Assembly: GCA_014859545.1 (NCBI GenBank)
Contig: JACUTZ010000005.1
Location: forward strand, 1 to 39,459
Reading direction: 5' to 3'
Origin: Gammaproteobacteria bacterium
GTDB taxonomy: Bacteria; Pseudomonadota; Gammaproteobacteria; Thiohalomonadales; Thiohalomonadaceae
DNA: 39,459 nt
Below the pieces are notes generated by a model. It worked only from the letters and a program-made list of their open reading frames with translations, had not been told where the DNA came from and did no database searches. Numbering within the stretch: position 1 is the first letter of the stretch; the number at the start of each line of letters is the position of its first letter. This document shows, piece after piece, positions 1-39,459 of this stretch. Both the position numbers and the translations under genes were made by a program.

Positions 1-55
1 ATGGGCCGCTTTCGAGCTGGTCAAGCATTGGGGTATCGTGCATTTTCTTAGCCAT
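1..55 (-). CDS. dsrA: Dissimilatory sulfite reductase alpha subunit, N-terminal fragment (runs off window)
   Basis: Minus strand from 55: ATGGCTAAGAAAATGCACGATACCCCAATGCTTGACCAGCTCGAAAGCGGCCCAT = MAKKMHDTPMLDQLESGP(W). Matches the remembered DsrA N-terminus (MAKHATPKLDQLESGPWPSF-type). RBS-like AGGAGA lies just upstream of the ATG. Confidence 0.8.
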   Translation of the reverse strand, partial: MAKKMHDTPMLDQLESGP

Positions 56-165
56 ACAAATATCTCCTGATTAAAGGATTAACACGGTTCCCGGTCTGCC
101 CACCCAACTGCTACTACTTTCGCCGGCTCGCCGACGCACAGATTGGTGATGCTGCCGATAAAAAG

Positions 166-184
166 CCCTGAAAGCATTTCAGGG
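166..184 (-). terminator. Hairpin CCCTGAAA-TGC-TTTCAGGG followed by CTTTTTAT (minus strand)
   Basis: 8-bp perfect stem plus U-run on the minus strand, downstream of phrB and upstream of dsrA. Confidence 0.7.
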
Positions 185-191
185 TGTGATA

Positions 192-220
192 ACCATAGTG
201 ATTAACTAGGGTATTGTCAA
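192..220 (-). promoter_or_regulatory. Sigma70-type promoter candidate, TTGACA-N17-TATGGT
   Basis: Minus strand: TTGACA (220-215), 17-nt spacer, TATGGT (197-192). Confidence 0.5.
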
Positions 221-270
221 TACCTGCCGGGCACGCAGGAATACTCTGACGGGGTTCTATCCCGCTTGAT

Positions 271-1713
271 CTATATGGATTTAGTGCCTTGCTTGATCGC
301 ATCGAAGCGTGCCAGGGCGCGCTGTCTGCTGGCGCTCAAATCCACGATGGGAGAGGGATAATCTTCGCCCAGCTTTAGGCCATAGGTTGCCAGCTCAGCG
401 GCACTGAGCCGCCAGGGCTGGTGCAGGTGTTTGTTGGGTAGTGCGGCCAGCTCGGGCACCCAGCGACGTACATATGTCCCCTGTGGGTCGAATTTTTGCC
501 CCTGTAATACCGGATTGAAGATCCGAAACCAGGGTGCGGCATCTGCCCCGCAGCCGGCGGTCCATTGCCAGCCCAGGGTATTGGCGGCCAGGTCCGCATC
601 CAGCAGGGTGTCCCAGAACCAGGCTGCCCCCGCTTGCCAGGGGATGAGCAGATTTTTGCTCAGCAGCGAGGCGACGATCATCCGTACCCGGTTGTGCATC
701 CAGCCCGTATGCCAGAGTTCACGCATCCCGGCATCAATGATTGGAAAGCCGGTTTGTCCACGTTGCCAGGCCTGCAGTCCTTGCGGATCATGCTCCCAGC
801 GAAAATCAGTAAAGCGTGGATCAAAGGGCTGTGTGGCTGTTTCGGGAAAGTGATAGAGCAGGTAATGGGCAAACTCGCGCCAACCCAGCTCGCGCAACCA
901 TGTCTCGGCATCGGCCAGGTGGCCGCTGGGTAGCGGTGTCTGCATTACTGCCTGTACCAGACGTGCCGGGCTGATCTCGCCAAAGTGCAGGTGGGGCGAA
1001 AGCCGTGCCGTGCCAGGCTGGGCAGGCCGATCACGGCCCTCGGCATAGTGGCTCAGGGCGGTATCCATGAATAACTCCATGGCTTGAAGTGCGCCATCCT
1101 CGCCCGGTGTCCAGGAGTGAGCAAAACCATCGGCCCAGGCCAGGCGAGGTTGCAGCTGCAGCGCCTCCAGGGGCAAGCTGTCCGGTCCGTCCAGGCTGGG
1201 GATTTGGCCGGGGGCTGCCTGTAACTGGCGTTCCAGGCCAAGGCGCTGGCAGGTCTTCCAGAAGGGAGTGAAGACCCGATAGGGCGTGCTGTCTGGTTTG
1301 ACTACCTGCCAAGGCTCAAACAACAACGCACTGTTATGGCTGCTGACCAGAATGCCCTGAGCCTGCAAAGCAATTTTGATGGCGCTGTCACGCTGGATGC
1401 ACGCCGGTTCGTAGAGGCGGTTCCAGTAAATATGGGTGGCCCCGCATTCCTTGATCAGTGCCTGCAGCACGCTCTGGCTATCACCCTGACGGAGGATCAG
1501 GCGCGCACCCCGTTGCGCTAAGCTCTTATCGAGGGCGGCCAGGCTGTGGTGGAGCCACCAGCGACTGGCGCCCCCCGCTTGCCAGGGGGCCTCCGCATCC
1601 GGGTCATGGATATAGACAAGCACTAGCTGTCGATGCGCCGCCAGCGCGGCCAGCAGGGCAGGGTTGTCATGCAGGCGCAGGTCGCGACGAAACCACAGCA
1701 GGGCAACACTCAT
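271..1713 (-). CDS. phrB: Deoxyribodipyrimidine (CPD) photolyase
   Basis: 480 aa; N-term LLWFRRDLRLHDNPAL and C-term FAD-binding region (WREFAHYLLYHFP, GMRELWHTGWMHNRVRM, DADLAANTLGWQWTAGCGADAAPWFRIFNP). Confidence 0.95.
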   Translation of the reverse strand: MSVALLWFRRDLRLHDNPALLAALAAHRQLVLVYIHDPDAEAPWQAGGASRWWLHHSLAALDKSLAQRGARLILRQGDSQSVLQALIKECGATHIYWNRLYEPACIQRDSAIKIALQAQGILVSSHNSALLFEPWQVVKPDSTPYRVFTPFWKTCQRLGLERQLQAAPGQIPSLDGPDSLPLEALQLQPRLAWADGFAHSWTPGEDGALQAMELFMDTALSHYAEGRDRPAQPGTARLSPHLHFGEISPARLVQAVMQTPLPSGHLADAETWLRELGWREFAHYLLYHFPETATQPFDPRFTDFRWEHDPQGLQAWQRGQTGFPIIDAGMRELWHTGWMHNRVRMIVASLLSKNLLIPWQAGAAWFWDTLLDADLAANTLGWQWTAGCGADAAPWFRIFNPVLQGQKFDPQGTYVRRWVPELAALPNKHLHQPWRLSAAELATYGLKLGEDYPSPIVDLSASRQRALARFDAIKQGTKSI

Positions 1714-1974
1714 CTGTACAAGCTCTCTACGGGTTGAGGAATAGCTGATTATTTGTACAACTATTGATGGGAGTTGTCGAGCCAGATCGGGGCCCCTTTG
1801 TAGGACATCCCTTATTTGTTGTAATTATCGAGGAAATAGGCACTTAGCTGTCATCAAAACAACACAATTGTAGATTAGCGTGCAATACTGGTCGGTCATG
1901 GATGAAAAACAGAAAAGTGCGACTAGAATTGCCGGATATGGACGTTGTTAGGGCCACTACAGGAGGAACATGAG

Positions 1975-2175
1975 ATGGCAACACAGGCCTTACTGAGAAC
2001 TGAGCTGGGTGTGGAGCCGGTGCATGGCGGGATCTATCGTACCCACAATAACGAGAGCATGATGGTGCTTGGGGTACGCAAGGATCGTATCTTTGTGGAA
2101 TATGCCGATGGCCGACACGGCAATCTGAGCTGGCGTGAATGGAGCAGTCTGCGCCCAAGCCCATCAACCTGCTGA
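1975..2175 (+). CDS. Small conserved-looking protein of unknown function (66 aa)
   Basis: Strong SD (AGGAGGAACATGAG-ATG) and a terminator immediately downstream; MATQALLRTELGVEPVHGGIYRTHNNESMMVLGVRKDRIFVEYADGRHGNLSWREWSSL... Confidence 0.7.
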   Translation: MATQALLRTELGVEPVHGGIYRTHNNESMMVLGVRKDRIFVEYADGRHGNLSWREWSSLRPSPSTC

Positions 2176-2192
2176 TATTTTGAACAATCATG

Positions 2193-2221
2193 AAAAAAGC
2201 CGACTCGAAGTCGGCTTTTTT
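2193..2221. terminator. Bidirectional intrinsic terminator
   Basis: AAAAAAGCCGACT-CGA-AGTCGGCTTTTTT; A-run and T-run on opposite sides, between the 66-aa ORF and tRNA-Val (opposite strand). Confidence 0.85.
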
Positions 2222-2225
2222 GTGT

Positions 2226-2301
2226 TGGTGGGTGCTGCAGGGATCGAACCTGCGACCCTCGCCTTGTAAGGGCGATGCTCTCCCAGCTGAGCTAAGCACC
2301 C
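2226..2301 (-). tRNA. tRNA-Val (TAC)
   Basis: Minus strand GGGTGCTTAGCTCAGCTGGGAGAGCATCGCCCTTACAAGGCGAGGGTCGCAGGTTCGATCCCTGCAGCACCCACCA; anticodon TAC, encoded CCA. Confidence 0.95.
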
Positions 2302-2512
2302 GAAAATCCCGCCTGCTGTGCAAGCAAGGCGCGCATCTTAAACACTGAAGGCGAAGCGGTCAAGGCAAACTTGCCATAATTTCCTCGGGGCTGGGTAGCC
2401 GTCCGCCTGTGATCATCGGAATCGGCATCGAAGCCTGATTCGCCCATCGCCGGGGCAGTGTGAAGTGGGTATAATCCCCGGTTTGCTTGCTACTGACAGG
2501 CCAGATTGTCCG

Positions 2513-3919
2513 ATGAGTATCAAAACCCGCTTTGCCCCCAGCCCCACCGGTTATCTACATGTGGGCGGTGCCCGTACCGCTTTGTTCTCATGGTTGCATG
2601 CCCGTAAGCACGGCGGCCGCTTTGTGCTGCGCGTAGAGGACACCGATCTGGAACGATCCACCGAGGCCTCGGTGAATGCCATCCTTGAGGGGATGAGCTG
2701 GCTGGGCCTGGAATACGATGAAGGGCCGATCTTCCAGACCCATCGCTTTGGCCGCTACAACGAAGTTATCGATCAGCTATTGACCAGTGGTCATGCCTAT
2801 CGCTGCAATTGTTCCAGGGAACGCCTGGAGACGCTGCGCGAGGGGCAGATGCAGCGCAAGGAAAAACCCCGCTACGATGGTCACTGCCGGGGCAAGACGA
2901 TCGATCCCAACGAACCCCATGTGATCCGTTTTCGCAATCCGGTCGAGGGTGTGGTGGCCTTTGATGACATGGTGCGTGGCCGTCTGGCCTTCGCCAACAG
3001 CGAACTGGATGACCTGATTATCCGTCGTAGCGATGGCGCACCCACCTATAACCTCACCGTGGTGGTGGATGACTGGGAGATGGGGATTACCGATGTGATC
3101 CGCGGTGATGACCACATCAATAATACCCCGCGTCAGATCAACCTGCTGCATGCCATCGGTGCCACCCCGCCGCGTTATGCCCATGTGCCGATGATTCTCG
3201 GTGATGATGGGGCGCGCCTGTCCAAGCGTCATGGCGCGGTCAGTGTGATGCAGTATCGTGACGACGGCATCCTGCCCGAGGCCCTGCTCAATTATCTGGT
3301 ACGCCTCGGTTGGTCCCACGAGGACCGGGAGATCTTTTCCCTGGATGAAATGGTCGAGTTGTTTGATATCAACAGTGTCAACAAGGCTGCCTCGGCCTTT
3401 AACACCGAAAAGCTGTTGTGGCTCAACCAGCATTACATCAAGAGCGAAGCGCCGGAGCGCATCGCCCGCCTGCTTAGTCGCCACATGGGTGATCTGGGGA
3501 TTGATCCGGCTCCCTATCCGCCCCTGGCCGAGGTGGTTGTGGCGCAGCGTGAGCGCGCCCACACCCTAGTGGAATTGGCCGAGATCAGCGCCTTTTACTA
3601 CCGTGATTTTGAGGGCTACGATGAAAAGGCGGCCAAAAAGGCCTTCAAGGCGGAGGCGCTTGAGCCCTTGCGCCGGGTGCGCCAGAAGCTGGTCGATGCC
3701 TCTGCCTGGGAGCGGGTGATGCTGCACGATGCCATCGCCCAAACCGTGGAGGAGCTGGGGGTGGGCTTTGGCAAGGTCGGTATGCCCTTGCGCCTGGCGG
3801 TGACCGGTGGCGCGCCATCACCGGATTTGGATCTAACCCTGCAGCTGATTGGCAAGGAGGCCTGTTTGCGCCGCATCGACAAGGCCATTGCCCATATCGA
3901 GACCACCCGCCATGAGTGA
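2513..3919 (+). CDS. gltX: Glutamate--tRNA ligase
   Basis: [45 protein letters not shown]; class I signature plus KMSK-like region ([11 protein letters not shown]). Confidence 0.96.
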
Positions 3920-5606
3920 CAAACCCATCTCAACACCAAGCAATTTTATCCGTCACATCATTGATGAGGATCTGAAAAACGGCAAGAACGGCGGCCAGGT
4001 GCTGACCCGTTTTCCGCCCGAGCCCAATGGGTATCTACACATCGGGCATGCCAAGTCGATCTGCCTGAACTTTGGGGTTGCCCGTGATTACCAGGGCCAG
4101 TGCAATCTGCGCTTTGACGACACCAATCCGCATAAGGAAAACCTCGAATTTGTCGAGGCGATCCAGGCCGATGTGAAGTGGCTGGGTTTTGACTGGGGTG
4201 GCAAGCCCTTTTATGCCTCGGATTATTTCGAGCAGCTTTATGGCTTTGCGATGGAATTGATCGACAAGGGCCTGGCCTATATCTGCGATCTCAACGCCGA
4301 GCAGACCCGTGAATACCGTGGCACACTCACCGAACCGGGCAAGAACAGCCCCTATCGGGAACGCAGCATCGAAGAAAATCGTGATCTCTTTCAGCGCATG
4401 CGTGCCGGGGAGTTTGCCGACGGCGCCAAGGTATTGCGCGCCAGGATCGACATGGCCTCGCCCAATATCAATCTGCGCGACCCGACCCTGTACCGGATCC
4501 GTCACGGGGTGATCCACCACCAGACTGGTAGTGAGTGGTGTCTGTATCCCATGTACGATTTCACCCATCCGATCTCCGATGCGCTGGAGGGGGTGACCCA
4601 TTCCCTGTGCACCCTGGAGTTTGAAGACCACCGTCCGCTCTATGACTGGGTGCTGGACAATATCAGCATCCCCTGTCACCCACAGCAGATCGAATTCTCC
4701 CGCCTCAATCTGCAATACACGGTGATGAGCAAACGCAAGCTCACCCGTCTGGTGGAGGAGGGCATTGTCGAGGGCTGGGATGACCCGCGCATGCCCACCA
4801 TCGCCGGGCTGCGTCGCCGGGGCTACACGCCGGCGGCGATCCGCGAATTTTGCGATCGTATTGGCGTGACCAAGTCTGACAACAGCATCGAGATGGCGAT
4901 CCTGGAGAGCTGTATTCGCGAGGACCTGGATGCCCATGCCCCACGGGCGATGGCGGTGTTGCATCCGCTCAAGGTGGTACTGAGCAACTATCCCGAAGAC
5001 AAGACCGAGATGCTCAGCGCCGCCAATCATCCCAAGGATGAGGCCATGGGTTCGCGTCAGTTGCCATTCAGTCGCGAACTATACATCGACCGTGCTGATT
5101 TCATGGAAGTGGCACCCAACAAGAAATTCAAGCGCCTGGTGCTCGGCGGTGAGGTGCGCCTGCGCAATGCCTATGTGATCCGTTGTGATGAGGTGATCAA
5201 GGACAATGCCGGTGAACCCATCGAGCTGCGTTGCAGCGTGGATATGGACACCTTGGGCGCCAATCCCGAAGGGCGCAAGGTCAAGGGAGTGATTCACTGG
5301 GTCTCGGCCCAGCATGGGATCCGTGCCGAGCTGCGTCTCTATGACCGCCTGTTCACGGTGCCGCATCCGGACAGTGACAAGAGCGTGACGGATTTTGTCG
5401 AGCTACTGAATCCGCAGGCCCTGCGTACCCTGACCGATTGCATCCTGGAACCCGGTCTGGCCAAGGCCGCTGAAGGCAGTCGTTATCAGTTCGAACGCGA
5501 GGGCTATTTCTGTTTCGATGCCAAGGCTTCCAGGGCGGATCTCCCGGTATTCAATCTGGTGGTTGGGCTCAAGGATTCCTGGGCCAAGATCGAACAACAG
5601 GATTAA
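3912..5606 (+). CDS. glnS: Glutamine--tRNA ligase
   Basis: [25 protein letters not shown] ... [14 protein letters not shown]; overlaps the gltX stop by 8 nt. Confidence 0.97.
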
Positions 5607-6096: not shown

Positions 6097-7038
6097 ATGT
6101 CTATCGATCAGGGCCGCTGGCAACGACATCGCTGGTTCAACCGGCTGCAGACCCTGTTATTGTTGCTGGGCATGGCGGGTTTCCTGGCCCTGCTTGGTTA
6201 TTTACTGTGGGGACGTGATGGACTGTGGGCGCTGTTACTAACGGCTCTGTTGCTGTTATTCATGCGGCCATTGATTTCCCCTGCCTGGGTGATGCGTGTC
6301 TACGGGGCCCGGCTGCTCGCGCCAGCGGATGCACCGGATTTGTATCGGTTGATCGGACAACTGAGTGCCAGGGCAGGCCTGGTGCGGCTGCCATCCCTGT
6401 ATTTTCTCCCCAACCCCGTGGTCAACGCCTTCACGGTGGGTAACCGGCGGCGGGCGACGATCGCCCTGAGTGAGGGGCTGCTGCGTTATTTGGGACCCCG
6501 TGAGCTTGCCGGGGTATTGGCCCATGAGATCAGCCATATCCGAAACAATGATATCCAGGTGATGCAACTGGCTGATTTTATTGGCCGCATGACCGCCGTG
6601 CTCTCCCTGCTTGGCCTCAGTCTGTTGATGATTAATCTGCCTTTGCTGCTCTTTGCCGAGGAAAGCCTTCCGCTGCTGCCGCTGCTGTTACTGATGGTTG
6701 CCCCGCATCTTAGCCTGTTGGCCCAGCTTGGTTTGTCGCGGACCCGTGAGTTTGATGCGGATCTGAGCGCAGCCAGTCTGACCGATGACCCGGAAGGTCT
6801 GGCGCTGGCCTTGCTGCGCATCGAGCAATTGCAGGAAGGCGGCTGGGCGCGCATGCTGTTTCCGGGTCGCCGCCTGCCATTGCCAAGATTGTTGCGCAGC
6901 CATCCGGACAATGCGGAACGGGCCAGACGTTTGTTGGCCTTGCGTGGCAGCGAGCGGGATGATGGCTTGGTCTGGCGGCACTATCGTCTGCCGCCAGGGC
7001 AGGCTCGGCCCGGCCATATCAGCCGTTGGTGGTTTTAG
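6097..7038 (+). CDS. M48 family membrane metalloprotease (HtpX-like)
   Basis: HEISH zinc motif (GVLAHEISHIRNND), N-terminal TM helices, SRTREFDADLSAA; GGGAGGGG RBS before ATG 6097. Confidence 0.88.
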   Translation: MSIDQGRWQRHRWFNRLQTLLLLLGMAGFLALLGYLLWGRDGLWALLLTALLLLFMRPLISPAWVMRVYGARLLAPADAPDLYRLIGQLSARAGLVRLPSLYFLPNPVVNAFTVGNRRRATIALSEGLLRYLGPRELAGVLAHEISHIRNNDIQVMQLADFIGRMTAVLSLLGLSLLMINLPLLLFAEESLPLLPLLLLMVAPHLSLLAQLGLSRTREFDADLSAASLTDDPEGLALALLRIEQLQEGGWARMLFPGRRLPLPRLLRSHPDNAERARRLLALRGSERDDGLVWRHYRLPPGQARPGHISRWWF

Positions 7039-39232: not shown

Positions 39233-39445
39233 AATAAATACGTTCAGTACTTCAACTTTACCCATCGCCGTACTGGCACCCTGCGGGAGGGGCGCTACAA
39301 GTCCACGCTGGTGAGTGCAGAGCATTATTTGCTGACCTTGTATCGCTATATCGAGCTGAACCCGGTGCGGGCCGGGATGGTGGCTCATGCCTCGGAATAT
39401 CCCTGGTCTAGCAGGCTGTTGTTGTCTACTCATGCGTCGCGATAG
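39233..39445 (+). pseudogene. REP-associated tyrosine (Y1/TnpA_REP) transposase, 5'-truncated remnant
   Basis: Frame from 39233: NKYVQYFNFTHRRTGTLREGRYKSTLVSAEHYLLTLYRYIELNPVRAGMVAHASEYPWSSRLLLSTHASR*; RAYT C-terminal half without its catalytic N-terminal half. Confidence 0.85.
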
Positions 39446-39459
39446 GGCGTTACAAAGCC

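Follow-up and report, generated by a model that had tools for sequence, protein, structure and literature searches.

The dsrA start at the edge of a Thiohalomonadaceae contig most likely belongs to a second, solitary dsrA gene

DsrAB, the sulfite reductase that serves as marker for dissimilatory sulfur metabolism, is regarded as a pair of subunits in a 1:1 ratio. Duplicate genes at separate loci may stay alike while their flanks differ, as in the concerted evolution of the tufA/tufB type. In Thiobacillus denitrificans, dsrA genes without a linked dsrB are found besides the clustered dsrAB (Beller et al. 2006, as reported in PMC2702494). In Chlorobaculum tepidum, the whole dsrAB is duplicated and one dsrB is frameshifted (PMC2702494). 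The Thiohalomonadaceae resemble T. denitrificans in having a dsrB-less dsrA additional to dsrAB in a sulfur oxidiser. T. denitrificans is, however, a betaproteobacterium with two extra copies and DsrA identities of 78–83% (PMC2702494), whereas the Thiohalomonadaceae have one extra dsrA per genome, at recurrent loci, with identities reaching near-identity and mostly with a common promoter. As in C. tepidum, nearly identical duplicate dsr genes occur within one genome, but it is dsrA alone that is duplicated, and every solitary copy with a complete sequence is intact. Unlike tufA/tufB, dsrA encodes a subunit of a catabolic enzyme and not a translation factor, and its ratio to DsrB would change.

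The stretch of DNA analysed here, the window, is 39,459 nucleotides long and is the entire contig C162 of a metagenome-assembled genome (MAG) of 2.44 Mb in 253 contigs, 94.6% complete with 0.9% contamination. Positions 1–55, on the minus strand, cover codons 1–18 of a dsrA gene that is most likely a solitary copy. Read from the ATG, positions 55 to 2 encode MAKKMHDTPMLDQLESGP, and all 18 residues are identical to residues 1–18 of the full-length DsrA of G001, the sole same-genus genome compared. The G001 protein has 414 residues and scores 557 bits against TIGR02064, a profile score for the full gene with a curated cut-off of 392.85. At the DNA level, the window and the G001 gene differ at very few positions, and the N-terminus MAKKMHDTPMLDQLESGP recurs in DsrA across the Gammaproteobacteria. 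Judged by this agreement, the match is not due to chance. A ribosome-binding site, AGGAG, lies at positions 64–68 (minus strand), 8 nt before the ATG, and CAGGAGAT is conserved in G001 and G010. The first-pass annotation, which had read the window edge as the start of dsrA behind a good minus-strand ribosome-binding site, is thus borne out on both counts. The 55 bases are exactly the assembly contig overlap; it follows that the window contains no further part of dsrA. Neither the 18 residues nor the host bin reaches the DsrA cysteine motifs.

The ends of four contigs converge on dsrA. The first 55 bases of the window reappear at the end of contig C190 (positions 6612–6666), an exact 55-mer corresponding to one assembly k-mer, and the two contigs enter dsrA from different upstream sequences that diverge from the base preceding the ATG. 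At the other end of the gene, contig C197 starts with the last dsrA codons and continues with dsrB, dsrE, dsrF, dsrH, dsrC, and further dsr genes. Its first 55 bases, the last 55 of dsrA, also close contig C51; on that contig, an intrinsic terminator, GGCGACCttcgGGTCGCCTTTTTT, comes after the dsrA stop codon, and a convergent histone-deacetylase-family gene comes next. The body of dsrA is absent from all contigs of the bin, in which the sole sulfite-reductase (NIR_SIR) domain found is that of DsrB. Since the entries and the exits each share exactly one k-mer, dsrA is a repeat node with two ways in and two ways out. The simplest reading of these overlaps would be that the genome has dsrA twice, the two copies agreeing exactly over 55 nt or more at either end, and that their flanks bear no relation to each other upstream of the ATG and beyond a point just after the stop. 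Because the body is missing from the bin, identity is visible at the ends alone, and we infer near-identity inside the gene.

We propose, with fair confidence, that a second, monocistronic dsrA starts in these 55 bases, with a promoter, an intrinsic terminator, and no dsrB, and that the normal reverse-Dsr (rDsr) operon is headed by the other copy. The solitary gene would sit between the gltX/glnS/tRNA/photolyase block of the window and the deacetylase/CheW block of C51; the operon copy would follow the C190 flank and lead into dsrBEFHC and the further genes of C197.

The operon on C197 reads dsrBEFHCMKLJOP, an order common to relatives; DsrB is confirmed by Pfam and the other names come from gene order and sequence reading. 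With dsrEFH, dsrC, and dsrL-type genes accompanying dsrAB, the Dsr system is assigned to the oxidative (reverse) type. The earlier expectation of a host with an rDsr locus of that type holds, and so does that of a gammaproteobacterial sulfur oxidiser, here from the family of Thiohalomonas. In most genomes of the family, the neighbourhood divergent to dsrAB consists of a gene of no known function (F10), a Cas6-family gene (F12), and a DsrC-like gene (F0), beyond which tmk, holB, and a PilZ-like gene are often found. C190 carries exactly this gene set, and this match identifies C190-dsrA-C197 as the expected operon.

Two genes of this flank are of interest in their own right. The Cas6-family protein (PF09559, E 5e-52) is encoded at positions 4571–5236 of C190 (minus strand), beside the dsr operon flank. 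Homologues recur at 48 of the 80 dsrA loci from named genomes, and the F10 gene at 34 of the 80, often together with them; for this recurrence, the Cas6-family gene looks tied to dsr and not to CRISPR. The DsrC-family gene at 4168–4503 of C190 (minus strand), divergent to dsrA, is a second one besides the dsrC of the operon. Its product has no terminal cysteine and ends in ...SRRKGGY.

A solitary dsrA recurs in the family. The dsr genes are present in 18 of 20 family genomes (the order-level search returned the same 20). A solitary dsrA lies on uninterrupted sequence in five genomes, G002, G010, G012, G018, and G019 (the last being Thiohalomonas denitrificans BL5_bin.3 of the Thiohalomonadaceae), and a second dsrA is deduced from contig ends in the host, G006, and G009. 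In a sample of the class, dsrA was found in 120 of 370 genomes, 117 of them outside the family. Possible parallels among second copies elsewhere in the Gammaproteobacteria were weighed and set aside: 14 of the 117 have two dsrA copies, but nearly all of these are a second complete dsrAB set. A second dsrA lacking dsrB was found outside the family only in G222 and G314 (2/117; copies cut by contig ends could not be judged). The solitary gene is thus seen in 5/18 dsr-bearing family genomes vs. 2/117 (p = 4e-4), or in 8/18 vs. 2/117 when inferred cases are included (p = 8e-7), both by a test that ignores kinship. One further genome, G202 (contig C246, locus L196), has a dsrA only 47% identical to the family DsrA, with its own dsrB, besides a normal dsrAB.

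The closed genome G002 has two dsrA genes and one dsrB. Its dsrA copies are 99.4% identical, the likeness being limited to the coding sequence; upstream of the ATG and from near the stop onward, the flanks show no relation. In G006, a 99-mer inside the gene is common to both copies, which differ in the first codons; in other genomes, the copies are 80–89% identical. In trees, solitary copies group with the operon copies of their own genome or of close relatives, not with one another. An AU test that covers the locus shared by G009 and G010 rejects their solitary copies as one clade (p = 8e-5); the host dsrA sequence is too short for trees. As far as trees and identities can tell, the pattern is one of concerted evolution, and the alternative, separate insertion events at one site, seems less likely. 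By extension, the two dsrA bodies of the host would be identical or nearly so, held in that state by gene conversion.

Between G018 and G019, the solitary copies differ with a dN of 0.011 and a dS of 0.38, giving a dN/dS of about 0.03, a ratio that indicates purifying selection on the gene between these two genomes. The CX5C and CX3C siroheme/4Fe-4S motifs and the ferredoxin CXXCXXC motif, aligned to 3mm5_A, are present in all of the relatives' copies that cover them, solitary and operon alike. Given the low ratio and the complete set of cofactor cysteines, the solitary copies look functional. Most likely, such a gene would provide extra DsrA for the DsrB of the operon, with which the additional subunit would pair. 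We think it rather unlikely that, instead of adding dose, the solitary DsrA acts as a specialised alpha subunit or in some other capacity such as regulation or formation of a homo-oligomer. The residue differences of 11–15% between solitary and operon copies in G009, G018, and G019 would accord with specialisation, as would the selection acting on the solitary copy between the latter two. However, the G002 products are 99.5% identical, which leaves little room for it, and the retention of all cofactor cysteines by the solitary copies also speaks against it.

We now turn to which copy begins in the window, where the first-pass annotation had expected an adjacent dsr operon. The same-strand upstream neighbour of dsrA is a DNA photolyase gene (271–1713, minus strand; PF00875 and PF03441), whose homologue, 68% identical, is also upstream of dsrA in G001. 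It is followed by markers of a solitary locus: a tRNA-Val(TAC) gene (2226–2301, minus strand), found beside the solitary dsrA of G009 as well, and a gltX-type glutamyl-tRNA synthetase gene (2465–3919, plus strand; PF00749 and PF19269), with homologues beside the solitary dsrA of G009 (76% identical) and G010 (85%). A glnS-type glutaminyl-tRNA synthetase gene (3849–5606, plus strand; homologue in G009, 79% identical) then precedes tRNA-Ala and tRNA-Glu genes, in the same order as in G009. In G010, gltX, dsrA, and a terminator lie on a single 3.7 kb contig and dsrB is absent after dsrA. In G009, the dsrA fragment that comes after the gltX/glnS/tRNA block has 82% identity to the operon copy over a 149-nt overlap, an identity so low that the two are different genes; the other solitary dsrA fragment of G009 has a terminator and CheW-type genes behind it, as on C51. 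These arrangements point to window-dsrA-C51 as the solitary copy, which is the most likely assignment. An operon next to the dsrA of the window is most likely wrong, since the gltX and tRNA-Val flank joins a dsrB-less, terminator-ended second dsrA in related genera and the conserved dsrAB-side flank is instead on C190. The rejection is not certain, because the same-genus MAG G001 joins a window-like flank to dsrAB.

This exception, a photolyase-dsrA-dsrB order on one G001 contig, could be either a recombination between copies or an assembly chimera. It is the ground for the reverse assignment, in which the window dsrA is the operon copy, the C190 copy is the solitary one, and recombination between the dsrA repeats has swapped the flanks. 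We regard this as unlikely, even though G001 is the only same-genus genome: in G010 and G009, the gltX/tRNA-Val flank accompanies a solitary dsrA, the C190 gene set is divergent to dsrAB in most family genomes, and the G001 contigs in question end just where the alternative could be seen. A search of G001 for the ends of a collapsed second dsrA found none, and no DNA match to the operon flank was found in that genome; its tmk/holB contig stops short of the Cas6-like and DsrC-like genes. The G001 contig of the deacetylase locus (L076, positions 1–160) begins in a CCCTTGT tandem repeat, where one would expect the terminator of a solitary dsrA. At the far end of the window, positions 39407–39459 are the edge of a dispersed repeat with about 27 occurrences in the genome, every one with its own flank and many at contig ends; it is probably the end of an insertion sequence.

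A single dsrA, with the fork as a strain or assembly artefact, would fit a MAG in 253 contigs that lacks the dsrA body but is very improbable, given two upstream and two downstream flanks, several with conserved housekeeping genes, a contamination of 0.9%, and the real duplicates in the closed G002 and in G010, G012, G018, and G019.

The proposed solitary dsrA has a predicted promoter of its own, TTGACA-17-TATGGT, at positions 192–220 (minus strand). A matching promoter is found upstream of six of the nine solitary-type copies, and an equally good one in 0 of 200 shuffles and in 0 of 15 operon upstream regions; it is also missing at the solitary copies of G012, G018, and G019. The window-type copies of the host, G001, G009, and G010 have it 157–165 nt before the ATG, and in G002 and G006 a promoter of the same type lies closer to the gene. 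Upstream of the same four window-type copies, there is a conserved leader, TGTGCGTCGGCGAGCCGGCGAAAGTAGTAGCAGTTGG, GC-rich and with GTAGTAGCAGTTG (positions 101–141, minus strand); an Rfam search of window positions 1–2500 gave only the tRNA above threshold and no match to the leader. Directly after the promoter, a hairpin with a T run (166–184, minus strand) is a possible terminator of the photolyase transcript, on weak evidence since 0.5 such hairpins are expected by chance per region. With its own promoter and terminator, the solitary dsrA is predicted to be a monocistronic unit. Its promoter would be uncoupled from operon control, and our guess is that the gene is expressed constitutively.

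In the literature library searched, no paper dealt with gene conversion of dsrA or described a solitary dsrA from the Thiohalomonadaceae. A solitary dsrA is in itself already known; the seemingly new aspects are how often it occurs within a single gammaproteobacterial family, the shared promoter, and the homogenisation. In practical terms, surveys based on dsrA only count such genomes double, and short-read MAGs may lose dsrA or misjoin its flanks, because the copies collapse into a repeat. It is tempting to propose, though only tentatively, that sulfur oxidisers of the Thiohalomonadaceae type keep a dedicated solitary dsrA with a conserved promoter, homogenised by gene conversion, which would free the DsrA:DsrB ratio, or the time at which DsrA is made available, from the control of the rDsr operon. 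A repeated duplication of dsrA only, under selection and homogenised, makes the question of why an extra alpha subunit is kept a testable one in cultivable Thiohalomonas.
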